From a virus: a stretch of DNA of 20,712 nucleotides. The DNA is taken from IMG/VR virus record IMGVR_UViG_3300043465_000529, positions 1 to 20,712 of that record. One strand, written 5' to 3'. The notes under the pieces are model-generated. The model did no database searches, was not told the origin of the DNA, and worked only from the letters and a program-made list of their open reading frames with translations. This document shows, one piece after another, positions 3,115-17,611 of this stretch. Each line of letters begins with the position of its first letter. The stretch's first letter is position 1. A program made the translations under genes and the position numbers.

Positions 3115-4412
3115 AACTGGGTAAGGCATACATCCTATACATCGACACTGAGAAGTCGAGAGAGTACGCGAAGGAGTGCGAGGCCTCGTGTGTGAAGTAC
3201 GGCGTGGAGCACGAGATGTTCGAGGGCTTCATGGGTCTCACCATCGAAGCCCTTGCCGAGAAGACCGGATGGAAGATCGGCCGCGAGGGCATCGAAGAGA
3301 ACGATCGTCAGTACGTAAAGGAGTACAACGCTGCCCTCGGTCACATCGAGATCTGGCGTAAGATCGCAGCTGGAACAGAGGCCGGCATCGTCTTAGAACA
3401 CGACGCGATCGTCAAGGAAGACTACACTCACCTCGAGGTCCGCGACGATCAGATCCTGCACCTCGGCCCGCGCCTCGACTATGCCGGCGACTACGAGTTT
3501 CCGGACCTACCAGACGAGTACCTAGAGGCTCGTCGCCATGAGGGTGCACACGCCTACGCGCTGACTCCTAATACAGCCCGCTTCTTGTTAGACAAGATCG
3601 AGGAAGAGAAGAGGCTGCTGCCGACCGAGGCCTTGATCAGCGTACGTAACAGGTACGATCTGGAGTTCTTGGAGATCGATCCGCCGTACGTAGTCTGCGC
3701 CATCGGCGACCGCGAGTCCTTCACACACCACGACGCGGTGACTGACAAGCAGAACTTCAGGCACAATCCCGGCTTCGTCGCCGGTCTCACACGACCGGAT
3801 GCACTGAATAACTATCGCATGATGGACTACAAGTTCGGCGAGGACTGGTTCAGCGGTAACATCGAGAACTGGAAGAGCATCTTCGTCGAGACTAATAAGA
3901 AGAACGGCGATCTATTGAAGATCCTCGAGATCGGCTGCTTCGAGGGCCGAGCGACTACCTGGCTTCTCGACAATATGATGGATCATCCAGAGAGTCTGAT
4001 CTATTGCATCGACACCTTCAAGGGAAGCCACGAGCACGATCCCAGCCAAGTCAACAAGATGGAGCAGAAGTTCCAGTTCAATATGGGAGTCTCCCGCTGG
4101 CCTGAGAAAGTTCGCCTGCTGAAGGGCGACTCGAGGTTCGTACTTCCTGCTTTGTGCAGGGACAATCGAGCTTTCGACATCATCTACGTGGACGGCTCGC
4201 ACGCCACTCTGGACGTGGTCAATGACGGCATCTACTCGCTGCATCTCTTGAAACCAGGCGGCGTCATCATATTCGACGACTACAAGTGGACAGACCCGAT
4301 CTTCGGCAACCAGCCGGTGATGAAGGCAGTCGACTTCTTGGATCGTAGCTATCCTAAATACATGAAGAGAATTCATGACGGATGGCAGCGCGCGTATCAC
4401 AAGGCCCCTTAG
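3111..4412 (+). CDS. Fusion of GT25-family glycosyltransferase and SAM-dependent methyltransferase
   Basis: The 433-residue protein has two parts. Residues 1-225 resemble family 25 glycosyltransferases (LPS and collagen galactosyltransferase type): KAYILYIDTEKS at the start, NAALGHIEIWRKI at 73-85, then IVLEHDAIV at 93-101, where EHD replaces the usual E/D-D-D metal site, and GAHAYALT at 145-152. Residues 245-433 form a class I methyltransferase of the Methyltransf_24 type: SAM loop EIGCFEGR at 273-280, acidic Asp301, IIYVDGSH at 357-364 and KPGGVIIFDD at 381-390. The protein may glycosylate and methylate a phage structural glycan, phage DNA or a host surface sugar; the sequence does not say which. 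Start ATG 3111 overlaps the previous stop. Its own stop (4410-4412) lies inside the following tRNA-Arg gene. Confidence 0.85.
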   Translation: MKLGKAYILYIDTEKSREYAKECEASCVKYGVEHEMFEGFMGLTIEALAEKTGWKIGREGIEENDRQYVKEYNAALGHIEIWRKIAAGTEAGIVLEHDAIVKEDYTHLEVRDDQILHLGPRLDYAGDYEFPDLPDEYLEARRHEGAHAYALTPNTARFLLDKIEEEKRLLPTEALISVRNRYDLEFLEIDPPYVVCAIGDRESFTHHDAVTDKQNFRHNPGFVAGLTRPDALNNYRMMDYKFGEDWFSGNIENWKSIFVETNKKNGDLLKILEIGCFEGRATTWLLDNMMDHPESLIYCIDTFKGSHEHDPSQVNKMEQKFQFNMGVSRWPEKVRLLKGDSRFVLPALCRDNRAFDIIYVDGSHATLDVVNDGIYSLHLLKPGGVIIFDDYKWTDPIFGNQPVMKAVDFLDRSYPKYMKRIHDGWQRAYHKAP

Positions 4413-4478
4413 CTCAGCGGATAGAGCAACAGCCTTCTAAGCTGTGGGTCGGAGGTTCGAGTCCTCCAGGGGTCGCCA
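4403..4478 (+). tRNA. tRNA-Arg (anticodon UCU)
   Basis: The gene is 76 nt with CCA encoded and discriminator G73. Acceptor GGCCCCT/AGGGGTC pairs with one G-U, the D arm is GCTC/GAGC, the anticodon stem is ACAGC/GCTGT with loop CTTCTAA (TCT, reading AGA), and the T arm is GGAGG/CCTCC around TTCGAGT. The first ten bases (4403-4412) are also the last codons and stop of the fusion gene before it. 5' processing by RNase P would therefore cut inside that mRNA. Confidence 0.95.
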
Positions 4479-6868: not shown

Positions 6869-8182
6869 ATGGCACAATTTAGAAAAGACTCGCATCAGTA
6901 CCTCGCGGATGGAAAGACCATCTTCGAGGTAATGATGCTTGCTGACGAGTATGGTAACCTGGTCGGAGCTGCCAACCCGTCTGGCATGGCGGTAGACGCA
7001 TTCGGAAGGGCCAGGATGTCTACCCCTCTGACTCTGTTTGACTCCTCTCACCGATATAAGGACAACGGCCTGTGGTCCACTTCTAATAGTGTCGGGACTA
7101 CCTACTCATTCAATGCTAACGCCGGTCTCATAGAGCTGAACCTCCCCGTCACTTCGGGAGCAGAGATCATCAGAGAGACCACGAAGGTCTTCTCTTATCA
7201 GCCAGGCAAGTCGCTCCAGATCCTTAATACGGTGGTCATGGAGCCGCCGAAGGCCAATGTCCGACAGAGAGTCGGGTACTTTAGCCCGCAGAATGGCATC
7301 TATCTAGAGGCCAACGGCACCAACATAGCCTTCGTCGAGCGCTCTTACTCCAATGGATCCGTCGTAGAGACTAGGGCCGAGCAGGCCGACTGGAATATAG
7401 ACACGCTACTAGGAGCGGTAGCCAGTAGTCCGTCGCAGAAGACTCTGGACATGTCCAAGGCACAGATCGTCTTCCACGACATCGAGTGGCTCGGTCTCGG
7501 ATCGGTCCGCTGCGGCTTCGTCATCGACGGTCGCCTCATTCACTGCCACTCCTTCCATCACGCCAACTACATCACCTCCACGTACATGACCACCGGATCT
7601 CTGCCACTCAGGTACGAGATCAGGAACACCGGCACTGCCGCGAGCAATAGCACCATGAAGCAGGTGTGCTCTTCCGTCATGTCCGAGGGTGGCTACGAAC
7701 TCAGAGGCCTGCAGCAGGCCGTCGGCAGTCCAGTCGGTACTGGGTATCGTCTCACCGACGCTGGTGTCTTCTATCCAGTAGTATCTGCCAGACTCAAGTC
7801 TACGGCACTCGACGCCATCGTCATACCGACCGCGATTGCTCTCATGGGTAGAGGCAGCGGCATCGACTTCCAGTGGAAGATGATCGCGGGCGGGACCGTC
7901 TCAAACACTCAGGCCTGGTCTACAGCCGGAGCTGATTCTGCCGTCGAGTACACGCTGACCGCTAACTCCATAACTGGAGGCAGGACGCTCGCTACCGGCT
8001 ACTTCAACTCGGCGACTCAGTCCTCTCCTTCCATAAACATCTTGAAAGAAGCGCTGTTCAAGTTCCAGTTTGAGAGGAACGGGCTCACTTCTACTCCTGA
8101 GCCTTTCACGATAGCGGTAGCCACCGGTACTGCGACTAGCAACTGCTACGCATCGCTTGACTGGGAAGAAGTCTCTAGATAA
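6869..8182 (+). CDS. Virion structural protein, T4-like marine phage type
   Basis: A 437-residue protein, rich in Ser, Thr and Gly, with the pattern of beta-rich tail or fibre proteins. It starts MAQFRKDSHQYLADGKTIFE and soon has NPSGMAVDAFGRARMSTP, a conserved opening that I know from structural proteins of cyanophage-like T4 relatives. The middle has a segment FVIDGRLIHCHSFHHAN and the end SLDWEEVSR. No enzyme motif is present. The late promoter and hairpin directly upstream fit expression with the virion genes. The ribosome site is weak (GGTGA, 6861-6865). It may be a tail fibre, baseplate or head-decoration component; sequence alone does not say. Confidence 0.78.
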   Translation: MAQFRKDSHQYLADGKTIFEVMMLADEYGNLVGAANPSGMAVDAFGRARMSTPLTLFDSSHRYKDNGLWSTSNSVGTTYSFNANAGLIELNLPVTSGAEIIRETTKVFSYQPGKSLQILNTVVMEPPKANVRQRVGYFSPQNGIYLEANGTNIAFVERSYSNGSVVETRAEQADWNIDTLLGAVASSPSQKTLDMSKAQIVFHDIEWLGLGSVRCGFVIDGRLIHCHSFHHANYITSTYMTTGSLPLRYEIRNTGTAASNSTMKQVCSSVMSEGGYELRGLQQAVGSPVGTGYRLTDAGVFYPVVSARLKSTALDAIVIPTAIALMGRGSGIDFQWKMIAGGTVSNTQAWSTAGADSAVEYTLTANSITGGRTLATGYFNSATQSSPSINILKEALFKFQFERNGLTSTPEPFTIAVATGTATSNCYASLDWEEVSR

Positions 8183-8481: not shown

Positions 8482-8511
8482 GATTTGATAAATAGAAGAC
8501 AGAATCAAATC
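8482..8511 (+). promoter_or_regulatory. Late promoter GATAAATA within an inverted repeat
   Basis: GATAAATA (8487-8494) stands about 30 bases before ATG 8523. GATTTGAT (8482-8489) and ATCAAATC (8504-8511) are perfect 8-bp inverted repeats that bracket the promoter box. The arrangement recalls the one at 6831-6860. Confidence 0.65.
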
Positions 8512-8522
8512 GAGGCGGACCT

Positions 8523-9761
8523 ATGCTCAATTTCAGACATTATCTATTGGAGGCTAAAGCCGCTGCCGTTCTAGGCGACGGGCCTCTCACACATCTATAT
8601 CATACGTCTTCTCTCGGTCACTTAGCCGGAGCAGATGGCACCGAGCACGGACTCGGTGCTCTCAACACGCTACTCTCTCACGTGATAAAGGGGAAGCTTC
8701 CCAAAGATCTCAAAGTAAAAGTAGACGGCTCTCCTTCCGTAGTAGTGTCGGGACCTTCTGCTAAGCACCCGGCTGGCACAGTGGCGACTAAGTCCGCCTT
8801 CAATGCCAATCCTAAGATCAACGCCTCTCACGAAGACATCGATCGCAATCACGGCGACAAGCTAGGTCTTGCCGAGAAGCTCAAGGATCTTCACGACAAC
8901 GTACCGAGCATACTACCTCCGGGCATGACGGTACAAGGCGACTTGGTGCATTCCGGAAACAAAGACGTCCGCGAAGAGATGATCGACGGAGTCCCGCACC
9001 TTACTTTCAAATCCAACCTCCTTCGCTATGCGGTCCCCTCTAACTCAGAAGAGGCCGAGAAGATTCGCAACAGCAAAGTCGGAGTGGCTCTTCACACCAT
9101 ATACGACGAGCATGGCAGGGCTAAGCCTATCTCTGAAGATGACATGGCCAGGATAGGTCAACATCCCGATGTTCACTTCATGTCAGTGATGCCGACGAAT
9201 CCACCGGTCATTGATAAAGACACAGTGTCTAGAGTACAGCAGCACCTGCAGAATGCGGCAGCTCATCACGAAGCTCTCAGCAAGCCAGACCAAGATGGTC
9301 ACACAGGATATGACTTAGTCACTCCTCACGGCATGGCTCTCGAGACCTACGTCAATCACACCATTCGAGAAGGCAAGCCTCAGAGCCTGGGTGGATTCAC
9401 GCAGTGGCTACAGGACCGTGGTGAGAAAGAAGCCATGAAGATGAAGACGGCGGCCTCTCAGAACTCTAAGAGACAAGCAGCTCAGGGTGTCATCATGCAC
9501 GTCAGGAGAAATAAGGCTCACTTCGAGAATGCTCTCGGCCTTCAACAAGAGATGGAGCAGGCCACTTCTCACCTGTCTGACTCGATGACTAATACTCACG
9601 GCTATCGCAGCTTCATTGGTGATCAAGAAGTCGGGCCCGAGGGTCACGTGTATAACTATAAGGGCAGCTCGGTAAAGGTGCTTCGCCGCAGACCGGATGA
9701 AGAGAGCGGTAAACTTTCTTTCACAGCCGCCAATCTACAAAAGGGAGGTGTCGGAAAGTGA
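8523..9761 (+). CDS. DUF6267-like protein with KxDG motif and capsid-targeting-like N-terminus
   Basis: A 412-residue protein. It matches, from memory, the DUF6267 proteins of T4-like cyanophages: KVDGSPSVVVSG (residues 66-77), FNANPKI at 93-99, VQGDLVHS at 137-144 and a TFKSNLLRYAVP stretch at 161-172. K66-x-D-G69 and Q138-G-D resemble motifs I and III of covalent nucleotidyltransferases such as RNA and DNA ligases; that relationship is my inference. The start MLNFRHYLLEAKAAA has the form of the T4 capsid-targeting peptide, with LLE before residue 11 as a gp21-type (L/I)xE cleavage site. It is the first gene of a coupled trio behind a late promoter; its TGA overlaps the next GTG start. Confidence 0.8.
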   Translation: MLNFRHYLLEAKAAAVLGDGPLTHLYHTSSLGHLAGADGTEHGLGALNTLLSHVIKGKLPKDLKVKVDGSPSVVVSGPSAKHPAGTVATKSAFNANPKINASHEDIDRNHGDKLGLAEKLKDLHDNVPSILPPGMTVQGDLVHSGNKDVREEMIDGVPHLTFKSNLLRYAVPSNSEEAEKIRNSKVGVALHTIYDEHGRAKPISEDDMARIGQHPDVHFMSVMPTNPPVIDKDTVSRVQQHLQNAAAHHEALSKPDQDGHTGYDLVTPHGMALETYVNHTIREGKPQSLGGFTQWLQDRGEKEAMKMKTAASQNSKRQAAQGVIMHVRRNKAHFENALGLQQEMEQATSHLSDSMTNTHGYRSFIGDQEVGPEGHVYNYKGSSVKVLRRRPDEESGKLSFTAANLQKGGVGK

Positions 9762-10738
9762 TACCACGATTCATCAATTTTATCCTCGAAGCTAAGAGTG
9801 CTGCTGCAGAGGCCAGCGCTTCTAACACTCCACGAGGCGCAGCATACGAGACTGCTACGGCTCTGTGGGTGCACAATAACACTGCCGCTAAGAAGAACCC
9901 GGCTCAGAGAGAGCGCGTCGCTCGCATGCAGCAGATGCATGCCGAGGCTATGCAGAAGCTGACACCCGAAGTACAGAAGCAAGTAAAGCAGTACGCAGAG
10001 AATTCTGGCCGCGCCTATCTGTCTTCTCTTCAAAAAGAAGGCATCAAGCCTGAAGACGTTCATGAAGTGCATCACACATACTCTGGAATAGATCATCTCG
10101 TAGGTAATAGAGTAGACAGGTCAGGCAATCCTCACGATATCATGATCAAGACTAAGAGAGGAGAGCTACACGGCGCCTCTCTAAAATTCAAGTCTGGTAC
10201 ACTCAGCAATAATACTCATAATAGCTTCGATCAGATGATGAACAATGCCGGATTCAAGTCGAATATCAAAGGCGTGTGGGATGCTAAGATGAAGAAGCTC
10301 GGTATCGATCAGCACACCGGAGCTGAGCTTAAAGAGATCAGAGACAAGCCCGCTATAGTCAAGGCTAATGCCGAAGCTCAGACTGAAGCAGCTGCTCATC
10401 ACGCTACTGTATTCAATGGCGGCAACTTAGCTGCTCAGAAGAAGATGCTAAATCAAGTCATGAAATCTAGCCCAGAGGTGCCGTATCACTACGTAGTAGG
10501 CGACAAAGGTACGTCTGACGCCATCCTGCAGAAGAAACAGTACGTTCTCTTGAACAAGGCCAAGAAGCTGAGAGCAATGACTACGCCGGGTGGTCATGTT
10601 CATATCTTAGATCACGATAACAATCACATCATAACTTTCTCACATAGACCTACTCATGGATCGTTTAATTCGATTCAGGTAAATGGTAAGCTCGGCACTG
10701 GCTCAACACCCAAGTGGTTCAAGGGAGGAGAGAAGTAA
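9758..10738 (+). CDS. Unknown phage protein, possible nuclease-like fold, capsid-targeting-like N-terminus
   Basis: A 326-residue, basic, His-rich protein. It starts at GTG 9758 inside the previous stop (GTGA), with GGGAGG upstream. The first residues, MIPRFINFILEAKSAA, again give a hydrophobic/aromatic peptide with an ILE site before Ala12. A helical stretch with GAAYETATALWVHN (27-40) follows, then NPHDIMIKTKRGELHGASLK at 124-143. Glu31, Asp127 and Ser141-x-Lys143 could form a PD-(D/E)XK-like nuclease site (E...D...xxK), but this is a guess from spacing. The last third is beta-rich (HVHILDHDNNHIITFSHRP). The stop TAA overlaps the next ATG (TAATG). I do not know the family name. Confidence 0.75.
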   Translation: MIPRFINFILEAKSAAAEASASNTPRGAAYETATALWVHNNTAAKKNPAQRERVARMQQMHAEAMQKLTPEVQKQVKQYAENSGRAYLSSLQKEGIKPEDVHEVHHTYSGIDHLVGNRVDRSGNPHDIMIKTKRGELHGASLKFKSGTLSNNTHNSFDQMMNNAGFKSNIKGVWDAKMKKLGIDQHTGAELKEIRDKPAIVKANAEAQTEAAAHHATVFNGGNLAAQKKMLNQVMKSSPEVPYHYVVGDKGTSDAILQKKQYVLLNKAKKLRAMTTPGGHVHILDHDNNHIITFSHRPTHGSFNSIQVNGKLGTGSTPKWFKGGEK

Positions 10739-11343
10739 TGTTTACTTTTCTACAGTTTTTACTCAGCGAAGAGAAGAAAAGCGATCACAAGGTCCTCGCC
10801 TTCGGTCGAGTAAATCCAGTACAGCCTGGTCACGTGAAGTTGTTCGATAGCGTTCGCGCTACTGCGAAGAAGCTAGGCGCCGATCACGAGGTAGTCCTGT
10901 CTCACTCACAAGATCCAAAGAAGAATCCGCTATCTCCAGCTCAAAAGCTCGAGCACGCCAAGGCGGCCTCGCCAGAGACTAACATCACTACTTCCTCGAG
11001 CGCGCATCCTACTCTACTGCACCACGCCGCCAGGGCTCATGCTCAGGGCTACAAGCACCTGACTATCGTGGCAGGCGAGGATCGCGTCAAGGAGTTTCAC
11101 GACCTCCTGCACAAGTACAACGGGGCAGAAGGCAGGCATGGTCACTACAACTTCAAGTCTATCAGAGTAGTCTCTGCCGGCCATCGCGACCCCGACGCCG
11201 AGGGAGTCGAAGGAATGTCCGGCTCTAAGATGCGTGATCACGCTGCATCAGGCAGGAAGAAGGAGTTCATGTCCGGCGTGCCTAAGGGTGTCGATGGCGA
11301 GAAGATGTACTCCGACGTGCGCAAGGGCATGGGCGTAGAGTAG
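10738..11343 (+). CDS. Nucleotidyltransferase (NMN adenylyltransferase/cytidylyltransferase-like)
   Basis: A 201-residue protein of the HxGH nucleotidyltransferase superfamily, which transfers AMP or CMP from a nucleoside triphosphate to a phosphate acceptor such as NMN. AFGRVNPVQPGH (21-32) is the T/HxGH loop, with Gln in the first place, and GMSGSKMRDHA near the C-terminus is the ISxxxxR-type motif. Homologues occur in T4-like phages. The substrate is not set by the motif; NAD synthesis is one possibility. ATG 10738 overlaps the previous stop and has GGGAGGAG upstream; an in-frame ATG at 10714 is less likely. The start MFTFLQFLLSEEKKS again shows the hydrophobic leader and an LSE site after residue 11. 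Confidence 0.88.
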   Translation: MFTFLQFLLSEEKKSDHKVLAFGRVNPVQPGHVKLFDSVRATAKKLGADHEVVLSHSQDPKKNPLSPAQKLEHAKAASPETNITTSSSAHPTLLHHAARAHAQGYKHLTIVAGEDRVKEFHDLLHKYNGAEGRHGHYNFKSIRVVSAGHRDPDAEGVEGMSGSKMRDHAASGRKKEFMSGVPKGVDGEKMYSDVRKGMGVE

Positions 11344-11357
11344 CAGTCTCTGAATAG

Positions 11358-11365
11358 CATAAATA
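11358..11365 (+). promoter_or_regulatory. Late promoter CATAAATA
   Basis: CATAAATA fits NATAAATA and lies 29 bases before ATG 11394, the same spacing as the other late promoters. CTCTGAA (11348-11354) and TTTAGAG (11387-11393) flank it as 7-bp arms with one G-U pair, weaker than the two bracketing repeats at 6831 and 8482. Confidence 0.6.
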
Positions 11366-11393: not shown

Positions 11394-12737
11394 ATGGCAG
11401 ACGCAAAGCAAGACCAGGGCGCCTCAGAGAAGATCCCGAATAAGGGTGACGACTCGCAGAAGCCGGCCAACCAGCAGAAGGTTAACATACCTCAGGGTAC
11501 TGTTACCGTCGGCAAGGGCAAGAACCGCGTAGAGATAGTCATCAACCCTCCAAACATGAATTACCTGTCAGTAGCCAGCGATCCAGGAGCTGCCGCCTAC
11601 AGACCAGGCGGAAAAGGTGGAATCGTGTCACACTTCGATCAATTCTTTGGCGACTACATCTCCGAGAATAAGGCCTACTACAAGGGTCTATCAAAGTCTA
11701 CCGTAGCTGCACGCAAGGCGCATTGGGCCAAGACGTCCAAGATGGATACGAAGGATCCGGCTGCCTACGAGCCTGCGCCGGGCGACGCCAATGCTAAGAC
11801 GAAGGAGTCTAAGCACACGAAGGCGTATCGCGCCAAGTTCGGTGAGGAAGTCGAGCTCGAGGAAGAGATGATCGACGAGGAGGCCGGCAGCGCTCTTGCT
11901 AAGAAGGCCAAGTCGTCTGGCGTCTCCCTAGGTACCCTGAGGACCGTGTATAAGAGGGGCGTCGCCGCTTGGAGGACCGGTCACAGGCCGGGAACCACTC
12001 CTCAGCAGTGGGGCATGGCCAGAGTCAACTCGTACATCACCAAGGGCAAGGGCACATATCACGGCGCCGACAAGGACCTGCGCGAGGAAGAAGACTCCAT
12101 GAAGTCATTCTCGGAGTTCGTGGAGGAGCTGGAGCTCGGCTACGCCGAGGAGTTCTTCAACCTAGAAGAAGACGTAGAGTACGAGGACTGGGGTGAAGAG
12201 TCCGAGGAAGTCGAGGTATACGCCGTCATTCACGAGAAGAAGGGTCCGTGTTGGACCGGCTACAGGATGGAGGGCATGAAGAAGGGCAGAAACGGTAATC
12301 CTGTTCCGAACTGCGTCAAGGAAGAGACTAAGCACAGCACCGATATGACCGGCAAGGTTTGTTCTTCCTGCGGTAAGGGAAAATACAAAGAGATGAGTCT
12401 ACATGATGATCGGGAAGGTAAGCTTACCTGCAGTAATTCGAAGTGTAAAAGTAGAGTAGATAGATGGAAGCAGCCAGCTGTCAAGGAAGAAGCAGAGAGT
12501 GGAGGCCGCAAGGTGTCGCTCAATAAGCCGTTCCTCACTCCAGGCGAGAATAAGAAGCGCGCCGTATACGTGAAGAACGCCAAGGGCAACGTCGTCAAGG
12601 TTCGCTTTGGCGATCCGAACATGAGGATTCGTAAGAGCAATCCCGCTGCCCGTAAGTCATTCCGCGCCCGTCACGGCTGCGACGTCAACCCCGGTCCGAA
12701 GTGGAAGGCCAAGTACTGGTCTTGCAGAGCTTGGTAA
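11394..12737 (+). CDS. Mosaic multi-module phage protein with DUF5872-like, zinc-ribbon and C-terminal Arg/Trp modules
   Basis: A 447-residue protein made of modules that I recall from many T4-like phage proteins. Residues 85-150 have GLSKSTVAARKAHW and YEPAPGDANAKTKESKHTK. Residues 170-231 (GTLRTVYKRGVAAW, TPQQWGMARVNSYI) are DUF5872-like. M236 opens MKSFSEFVEELELG, like a capsid-targeting start. Next comes an acidic linker, then GPCWTGYRMEGMKK with a PNCVKE end. A zinc ribbon has C323/C326 and C346/C351. The C-terminal module (375-447) has GNVVKVRFGDPNMRI and ends KYWSCRAW. There are many LxE sites (for example in VELEEE and NLEED), so cleavage by a gp21-type protease is plausible. Codons in the zinc-ribbon part are visibly more AT-rich. 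Its role is unknown; a head-internal or core protein is my inference. Confidence 0.78.
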   Translation: MADAKQDQGASEKIPNKGDDSQKPANQQKVNIPQGTVTVGKGKNRVEIVINPPNMNYLSVASDPGAAAYRPGGKGGIVSHFDQFFGDYISENKAYYKGLSKSTVAARKAHWAKTSKMDTKDPAAYEPAPGDANAKTKESKHTKAYRAKFGEEVELEEEMIDEEAGSALAKKAKSSGVSLGTLRTVYKRGVAAWRTGHRPGTTPQQWGMARVNSYITKGKGTYHGADKDLREEEDSMKSFSEFVEELELGYAEEFFNLEEDVEYEDWGEESEEVEVYAVIHEKKGPCWTGYRMEGMKKGRNGNPVPNCVKEETKHSTDMTGKVCSSCGKGKYKEMSLHDDREGKLTCSNSKCKSRVDRWKQPAVKEEAESGGRKVSLNKPFLTPGENKKRAVYVKNAKGNVVKVRFGDPNMRIRKSNPAARKSFRARHGCDVNPGPKWKAKYWSCRAW

Positions 12738-12756: not shown

Positions 12757-13194
12757 ATGGAAGAGCTAGTCGAAAAGATGAAGATAGTCCTCGCGGACAC
12801 CTTCGCCATGTACCTGAAGGCTCACATGTTTCATTGGAACGTGACCGGTCCGAACTTCAACGAGATGCACGCCTTCTTCGGTGGCATCTACAACGAGCTG
12901 TGGCTGGCTACGGACGCCATCGCCGAGCAGATCCGCACGCTCGACGCATACGCGCCAGGCTCGTTCACTCGATTCGGTCAGCTGGCCACCGTAAAAGACG
13001 AGACCTCCATTCCTGCCGCTGTGGCAATGGTGTCTAAGCTCAAGGACGACAACGACAAGGTCATGGAGACGCTGAAGGCTGCATTCCTCGAGGCCGAGAA
13101 GCAGAAGGTCTATGGCCTCGCTAACTTCCTGCAAGACAGGATCGACATCCACGCCAAGCACGGCTGGATGCTCAAGTCAACACTAAAGGTGTAA
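12757..13194 (+). CDS. Dps-like ferritin-family protein
   Basis: A 145-residue, four-helix-bundle protein of the Dps type, which oxidises Fe(II) with peroxide, stores iron and can shield DNA. The dinuclear iron site is intact: His26 (in HWN), His38, Asp53 and Glu57, with spacings of 12, 15 and 4, the same as H31, H43, D58 and E62 in Listeria Dps. It lacks a long basic N-terminal tail, so strong DNA binding is not obvious. GAGAGAGG lies before ATG 12757. A degenerate late box (GGTAAATA, 12733-12740) overlaps the previous stop. Dps-like genes occur in some marine T4-like phages. A two-base gap separates it from the next gene. Confidence 0.9.
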   Translation: MEELVEKMKIVLADTFAMYLKAHMFHWNVTGPNFNEMHAFFGGIYNELWLATDAIAEQIRTLDAYAPGSFTRFGQLATVKDETSIPAAVAMVSKLKDDNDKVMETLKAAFLEAEKQKVYGLANFLQDRIDIHAKHGWMLKSTLKV

Positions 13195-16570: not shown

Positions 16571-17611
16571 ATGTTAACGACAAATTCTACATGGCTTGAC
16601 GAGAAATACGTCAACCTCCTGTCCTTTCGCCTAGACCGATTCAAGAAGGTAGGCAAGACTCAATACAACTTCAGGTGTCCGATCTGCGGCGACTCTAAGA
16701 AGAGTAAGTCGAAGGCTCGAGGCTACGTCTTCGAGTACAAGGGCACCTTCTGGTACAAGTGTCACAACTGCGGCAAGTCGACCAAGTTCAAGAACTTCTT
16801 GAGAGAGGTCGACCTGACTCTCTTCGAGCAGTACAACATGGAGTGGCTCAAGGAGCACGGCTTCTCTTCTAAGCCTGCCACCAAGTTCGAGCACCAGATA
16901 GAGAAGTTCGACAAGCGCAGGACCGACAAGTTCGAGCCGCTGAAGACTCTCAAGAAAGTATCCCAACTCCCATTCGATCACAAGTGCAGACAGTACGTCG
17001 AGTCTCGGAAGATACCGACCGACACTCACTACTTCTTGTACTGGTGTCCGAAGTTCTACACCTGGGTCAATCACTACATCCCCGACAAGTTCTCTGCGCA
17101 GACTCTCGAGAAAGACGAGGGCAGGCTCGTGCTCCCGTTCGTGGACCAGAATGGATACGTCACCGGCTGTACCGGCAGGTCTCTGGAGAAAGACGCCAAG
17201 CTGAGGTACGTCACCATCAAGTTCAAGGAAGAAGCGCCTAAAGTATTCGGCTTAGATAGAGTGGACTTCAAGAAAGAAGTCATCGTGGTCGAGGGGCCGA
17301 TCGACTCCTTATTCCTGCCGAACTGCATAGCTCTGGCGGGTAGCTCCGCGGACTTATCTGCTCTGCCGCTGAGTAATGACACCATTTATTTTTTCGACAA
17401 TGAGCCTCGGAACAAGGACATCGTCAAACAGATGCAAGCATACATAGACAGCAACCGTCGTGTCTGCATCCTCGAAGACGTTCCCCACAAGGATATAAAT
17501 GAAATGATCATGTCCGGTATGAGTCGTCGGAACGTCTTGGATCTAATACACCGGTCTACACATCGCGGCCTTCAGGCCAAGCTCGCCCTACAACGCTGGA
17601 AGAAGATTTAG
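16571..17611 (+). CDS. 61: DNA primase, gp61 type
   Basis: The 346-residue primase lays RNA primers on the lagging strand and partners the gp41 helicase. An N-terminal zinc finger has C36-x2-C39 (CPIC) and C64-x2-C67 (CHNC), close to T4 gp61 and bacterial DnaG. A Toprim domain follows, with VVEGPIDSLF at 239-248 (Glu241 catalytic) and FFDNEPRN at 274-281 (Asp276 metal site). Near the end, HKDINEM is typical of gp61-type proteins. Length matches T4 gp61 (342). GAGG stands before ATG 16571. The gene heads a transcript with the ribonucleotide reductase 15 bases downstream, tying primer synthesis to nucleotide supply. Confidence 0.93.
   Translation: MLTTNSTWLDEKYVNLLSFRLDRFKKVGKTQYNFRCPICGDSKKSKSKARGYVFEYKGTFWYKCHNCGKSTKFKNFLREVDLTLFEQYNMEWLKEHGFSSKPATKFEHQIEKFDKRRTDKFEPLKTLKKVSQLPFDHKCRQYVESRKIPTDTHYFLYWCPKFYTWVNHYIPDKFSAQTLEKDEGRLVLPFVDQNGYVTGCTGRSLEKDAKLRYVTIKFKEEAPKVFGLDRVDFKKEVIVVEGPIDSLFLPNCIALAGSSADLSALPLSNDTIYFFDNEPRNKDIVKQMQAYIDSNRRVCILEDVPHKDINEMIMSGMSRRNVLDLIHRSTHRGLQAKLALQRWKKI

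Follow-up and report, generated by a model that had tools for sequence, protein, structure and literature searches.

Why should three consecutive genes of an uncultured T4-like virus, whose products belong to different protein families (Pfam/PHROG), open with what is in form the same short peptide? The question arises from a 20,712-bp fragment (IMGVR_UViG_3300043465_000529, positions 1 to 20,712), which carries 30 open reading frames (ORFs) and is referred to here, over its whole length, as the window. An earlier note on this DNA had pointed to three genes at 8523-11343, here called P1, P2 and P3, as encoding enzymes with T4-like capsid-targeting peptides that might be injected into the host. 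On the evidence set out below, we consider it quite likely that these leaders are capsid-targeting sequences of the T4 type, carried by a late operon, and that the enzymes behind them are packed in the head and ejected from it.

Three leaders on one predicted operon

The leaders were scored with a matrix of nine columns, whose training set comprised 60 distinct leaders taken from homologues of P1 and P3 in other (aquatic) phage contigs; the window was held out of the training, one 76%-identical relative (L009) was included, and shuffled N-termini and internal windows served as controls. The features concerned are listed in window coordinates, with an arrow marking each predicted cut by the gp21 protease:

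8487..8494, + strand: late-promoter-like site GATAAATA, 36 bp upstream of the P1 start, in the same arrangement as at 6869 and 11394
8523..9761, + strand: P1, a DUF6267 protein of 412 residues, N-terminus MLNFRHYLLEAK (Pfam PF19782, E=3.9e-52)
8523..8552, + strand: P1 leader MLNFRHYLLE, predicted cut after E10 (LLE↓A), matrix score 13.7
9758..10738, + strand: P2, 326 residues, GTG start, N-terminus MIPRFINFILEAK (homologues in L026, L031 and L032, ~44% identity)
9758..9790, + strand: P2 leader MIPRFINFILE, predicted cut after E11 (ILE↓A), matrix score 15.8
10738..11343, + strand: P3, cytidylyltransferase/NMNAT-like, 201 residues, N-terminus MFTFLQFLLSEEK (phrog_3041, E=9e-56)
10738..10770, + strand: P3 leader MFTFLQFLLSE, predicted cut after E11 (LSE↓E), matrix score 12.7

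The form M-x-x-F-x-x-[FY]-[LI]-x-E begins exactly three of the 30 window ORFs, namely these (with the residue past the predicted cut, MLNFRHYLLEA, MIPRFINFILEA and MFTFLQFLLSEE). Aromatic residues stand at F4/Y7 in P1, F4/F7 in P3 and F5/F8 in P2, the register of P2 being shifted by one relative to T4 IPIII, and all three leaders close with an (L/I)-x-E site of the gp21 type. That there are three such leaders in a row, as claimed earlier, is borne out by the held-out matrix, which gives the remaining 27 ORFs scores of 2.1 at most, against 12.7-15.8 for P1-P3. Shuffled window N-termini reached 12.6 or more in 9 of 60,000 trials; the leader of P3 is the weakest, its score being equalled by 0.2% of its own shuffles. 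The endings LLE, ILE and LSE were also placed correctly in the earlier note, except that the acidic residue of P3 is residue 11 and not 10 (L9-S10-E11).

The ORF boundaries proposed at the time (8523-9761, 9758-10738 and 10738-11343) were correct, and so was the description of the starts as coupled: the P1 and P2 genes overlap by 4 bp (GTGA), those of P2 and P3 share one base (TAATG), and each of the two downstream starts has a strong Shine-Dalgarno sequence, a layout by which the P1, P2 and P3 starts are translationally coupled. The late promoters fared less well, as a late-type promoter does precede P1, but not each of the three genes. ATAAATA occurs three times on the + strand of the window, always between genes and 36-38 bp ahead of the starts at 6869, 8523 and 11394 (the - strand holds one copy), and because the + strand copies stand before these starts only, a single predicted late promoter at 8487 would drive the whole P1-P2-P3 operon. 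The gene starting at 6869, likewise preceded by ATAAATA, is a virion structural gene. The surrounding order, with a gp41-type helicase (220-1608), the late cluster, a gp61-type primase (16571-17611) and then ribonucleotide reductase, agrees with the gp41-gp61 locus of Kyanoviridae.

As to the proteins themselves, P1 carries K66-x-D68-G and later E373-G374-x-V376 and K385, and K66, D68, E373, G374, V376 and K385 are invariant in an alignment of 20 homologues. Such motifs are typical of covalent nucleotidyltransferases and ligases and point to a ligase-like role. The fold did not support an assignment of P1 as a ligase: its structural model is good (mean predicted local distance difference test, pLDDT, 87.7, with residues 1-14 disordered or of low confidence), and Foldseek against the PDB returned no significant match, RNA-editing ligase 1xdn ranking fifth at E=0.53. 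Searches of PDB sequences with P1 and P3 gave nothing useful. For P2 no Pfam or PHROG match was found, and the first homology searches were empty; tblastn over the fetched loci then gave three homologues in other phages, all of them tagged, so that we rejected its status as an ORFan. These homologues have ATG at the same leader, which backs the GTG start of P2. E31, D127 and S-L-K143, invariant in the four sequences, suggest a nuclease of the PD-(D/E)XK type; here, too, the fold gave no support, as the model is of low confidence (69) and without a PDB match. P3 falls into phage cytidyltransferase families (phrog_3041 as above; phrog_395, 1e-41) and matches PF01467 only below the Pfam cut-off. 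Searches for this cytidylyltransferase/NMNAT-like protein found 550 phage records, the motif GR.NP..GH is present in its homologues, and relatives are annotated as NMNAT in a published record (PMC9602691).

The T4 counterpart and the spread of the leader

The leaders resemble the tag of T4 IPII and IPIII (MKTYQEFIAEA) in length and position, in the aromatics at 4 and 7, in I or L at 8 and E at 10, and in the gp21-type site, and as in T4, one tag is found on otherwise unrelated proteins. Applied to the 286 called ORFs of T4, which lay outside the training set, the matrix placed gp61.1 first (17.2), followed by IPII and IPIII (12.4 each). The segment FGSFLTE↓AE of T4 gp23, around the established site of its maturation by gp21, scores 11.9, and the major capsid proteins of the relatives read LTE↓A, LSE↓A, FLTE↓T, FLAE↓A and similar at the aligned place. 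Targeting by IPIII is ascribed to residues 4 and 7 and processing to residues 8 and 10 (Mullaney and Black 1996, reviewed in PMC9026906). When 20 P1 homologues are aligned, all but one of them only 25-35% identical to the window protein, F4, L8 and E10 are conserved to at least 90% and residue 7 is F or Y, while the rest of the leader varies; the near-invariant columns 4, 7, 8 and 10 thus coincide with the positions mapped in IPIII by mutagenesis. The protease is encoded in all 16 relatives tested.

Two further observations concern possible head proteins. The gene for gp61.1 (L194, NC_000866, 18966-19130, - strand), whose product starts MKTFKEFIKED and is the best leader match in T4, lies next to gene 61, and a stretch of it, NISIGTTSGAVVNKGP, is similar to NIAAGQTSGAVTQIGP, which comes after the cut site in gp23; gp61.1 is a candidate head protein of T4. 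Just before gp21 in one relative (L146 1406-2434, corresponding to G003 121406-122434) lies the gene for a 342-residue protein of no known family, starting MSSKSFKSFVLEDAEE, and a protein of similar size, MAKFLKSILEDK, is encoded beside gp21 in G005. Both are possible tagged core or scaffold proteins.

The leader behaves as a module. It is not part of the folded domains (the models are of low confidence at residues 1-14 in P1 and 1-23 in P2), and in fusions of P1 with P3 it stands at the N-terminus of the fusion and is absent at the junction. Non-homologous neighbours are tagged too, with four consecutive tagged genes in each of two relatives (L091 and L096, one L096 gene scoring only 8). Six near-complete relatives have 16 tagged genes besides P1 and P3; 12 of these are found no more than 10 kb from P1 or P3, a range that takes in 237 of 1,523 genes overall (Fisher p=1.6e-7). 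All three P2 homologues, at ~44% identity, keep the leader pattern in different letters; most P3 homologues have a leader, and it is present on 51 of 73 distinct P1 N-termini (~70%).

In three relatives (L026, L029 and L031) two adjacent genes together make up P1, with the leader on the N-terminal half only. This is what one might expect of a peptide that docks to a partner, and it is conceivable that the leaders serve to attach the proteins to another late assembly, such as tail, neck or membrane, or to one another, with neither targeting to the head core nor injection. A tail-fibre-assembly-like protein (G001 23930) that also scores would fit such a role. Against this, T4 shows the same pattern in the tag of IPII/IPIII and at the site where gp23 is cut, and the conserved positions extend to E10, which docking alone does not explain; the untagged half of P1 could moreover ride into the head passively with its partner. 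We consider docking of this kind improbable.

Tagged proteins in the particles of relatives

Virion mass spectrometry has been published for two cyanophages of Synechococcus, S-CREM2 and S-SCSM1 (PMC10665884, PMC9602691). Among the 218 proteins of S-CREM2, the matrix ranks the gp154 cytidylyltransferase (MKNFSSFLTEADEK), the gp14 kinase (MKRFDAFLTEEE) and the small protein gp13 (MKDLHSFLTEQD) as the top three, with the gp6 SAM hydrolase (MKDFDSFLEEFD) in fifth place, and all four are on the published virion list (PMC10665884 Table 3). The list also includes the Cas9-like gp12 (L190 7704-10313, - strand), which carries an offset motif, RFASFMAEA, at residues 18-26; a shorter protein of S-CRM01 has a similar N-terminus (SRWAKWSRGTEVKLSLDSFIKEAA). 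No N-terminal tag was found on the annotated structural proteins of S-CREM2. Only gp154 among its tagged proteins is known to be homologous to the matrix training set. In S-SCSM1, the NMNAT (MKSFLQFLKEA) scores 22.6, first of 282 proteins, and is marked as a virion protein in its record. The kinase of S-CRM01 starts MISFDQFLSEK and is cited in PMC10665884 as reported in virions. RaK2-like jumbo phages were considered as further virion support and set aside: CBB encodes NMNAT-like genes, and no passage retrieved places their products in virions.

P3 is homologous to the cytidylyltransferase/NMNAT found in cyanomyovirus virions (S-CREM2 gp154 and S-SCSM1 ORF91, reported also for S-CBWM1 and S-SZBM1), and both virion-detected N-termini examined, those of S-CREM2 and S-SCSM1, carry the leader. 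In S-SCSM1 and S-CRM01, the NMNAT gene occupies the same gp41-gp61 locus as P3; in S-CREM2, unlike P3, it lies elsewhere, after the late sigma factor. The cyanomyovirus proteins differ from P3 in length and fused domains, and the published text consulted mentions neither a leader nor a packaging mechanism.

Several results weigh against packaging by a T4-type tag. The matrix does not recover T4 IPI (-0.4) or Alt (-11), so its sensitivity is limited, and it has at least one likely false positive (MAAFTELLIEQ in G001). The window, being a fragment, carries neither a gp21 match nor capsid genes. The leader is absent from 22 of the 73 distinct P1 N-termini, mostly of cyanophage and other marine groups, and from about 20 P3 N-termini. 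Since structural proteins make up most of the virion, the enrichment of tags there is modest for each phage when all proteins are counted (p=0.01-0.03 for S-CREM2; not significant for S-SCSM1 alone; combined p=0.006-0.01). In S-SCSM1, several untagged proteins of the same locus were also detected in virions, so the tag is not the sole route into the particle, and we rejected the view that all proteins of the locus must bear it. Finally, the authors of both virion papers allow that the enzymes may be co-purifying contaminants (PMC10665884, PMC9602691).

This last point, together with the homologues of P1 and P3 that have no leader, is what would be expected if the likeness were convergent, or a by-product of coupled starts and late expression, and if abundant late proteins had merely contaminated the virion preparations. 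The leader is, however, conserved position by position across homologues of ~30% identity, it is transferred in fusions, the T4 control is positive, and gp6, gp12, gp13 and gp14 of S-CREM2, tagged and non-homologous, were all detected in virions, making this reading very improbable. The lack of the leader in some P1 homologues, for its part, appears to follow lineage and not to be random. The T4 control, the IPIII mutagenesis positions, the tagged virion proteins, the presence of gp21 in relatives and the modularity of the leader together uphold the capsid-targeting reading of the earlier note.

A different matter is where the packed enzymes would act. Mass spectrometry shows association with the virion and not ejection, and a neighbouring late gene of the window encodes a virion structural protein; the leaders could be genuine packaging tags on enzymes that work in the head or during assembly, in DNA condensation or capsid maturation, and not in the next host. 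In T4, the proteins that bear this tag are injected and are active in the host cell (PMC12373910, PMC9026906), and it is not obvious what metabolic and nuclease-type enzymes would do inside a sealed head, so that we regard a role confined to the particle as unlikely, if less so than the two alternatives above.

A proposed route into the next host

It is probable that P1-P3 are injected together with the DNA as infection begins, because their leaders match the T4 head-loading tag and related viruses hold tagged enzymes in their particles. For the phage of the window we infer late expression, packaging, gp21 cleavage, ejection and the enzyme roles as follows. The operon would be transcribed from the 8487 promoter late in infection, and the aromatics at positions 4 and 7 would dock each protein to the scaffold core of the forming prohead; gp21 would cut after (L/I)-x-E (E10/E11), releasing the mature enzymes within the head, where the DNA would come to surround them as it is packed. 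In the next infection the enzymes would exit the head along with the DNA and be active ahead of any phage gene expression. In T4, foreign proteins fused to the tag follow this route of packaging and ejection (PMC9026906). Early counter-defence or host takeover appears to be the likeliest role, though we would give it somewhat less than an even chance; the NMNAT-like P3 might then serve NAD+ metabolism or supply, and P1 (ligase-like) and P2 (nuclease-like) might process nucleic acids.

Compared with known systems, the cargo is unusual. The T4 internal proteins are small and inhibit type IV restriction enzymes (PMC12373910), whereas the window encodes larger, enzyme-like proteins (201-412 residues) in one operon between gp41 and gp61. 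T4 Alt, an ADP-ribosyltransferase, offers a precedent for an enzyme that is processed by gp21, packed and injected, but its tag, MELITELFDE, fails the matrix. In the phiKZ-like SPN3US, head proteins are likewise cut by a prohead protease after x-x-E, but several propeptides exceed 100 residues and the sites are A-x-E (PMC5694885). A review already suggests that T4-like phages may be able to load a variety of proteins by means of the tag (PMC9026906); our search of an open-access library turned up no literature linking capsid-targeting sequences to cyanophage enzymes. What appears to be new is that aquatic T4 relatives put the tag on cassettes of large enzymes, and that it marks, and predicts, the odd enzymes of cyanophage virions. 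Virion proteomics of cyanophages repeatedly yields metabolic and nucleic-acid enzymes, which have been ascribed to packaging or contamination; a head-packing tag of the T4 type supplies a mechanism, allows the packed proteins to be predicted and makes the two explanations testable against each other. It would also widen the internal-protein strategy of T4 from the small restriction inhibitors of enteric phages to the enzyme cassettes of abundant aquatic phages. Whether the tag serves Kyanoviridae-like T4 relatives more generally, as a portable barcode on injected enzymes that form a rapidly exchanged arsenal, we regard as evenly balanced. Such an arsenal, lying mostly in the gp41-gp61 late cassette, would comprise NMNAT-like, ligase-like and nuclease-like proteins, a kinase, a SAM hydrolase and even a Cas9-like nuclease, would provide counter-defence before expression, and its effectors could be found from sequence alone.

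The cassette probably continues downstream into a fourth gene, P4:

11394..12737, + strand: P4, a protein with DUF5824 and a KAKYWSC tail (PF19141, E=1.5e-21), with its own late promoter at 11358
12099..12128, + strand: leader-like segment MKSFSEFVEE within P4, residues 236-245, in the exact register of a capsid-targeting sequence; matrix score 11.2

The segment is retained in L009 (12.5), and in phage C48C1 the tail domain of P4 is a separate, tagged gene product starting MKKFKQYIDEG. The internal segment is likely to be a relic of gene fusion or an internal gp21 site. Directly after P4, the late cluster encodes a Dps/ferritin-like protein (12757-13194; PF00210, E=3.5e-20), and four tRNA genes, Ile(tat), Leu(taa), Met(cat) and Arg(tct), are found at 2426-2676 and 4403-4478 of the window.

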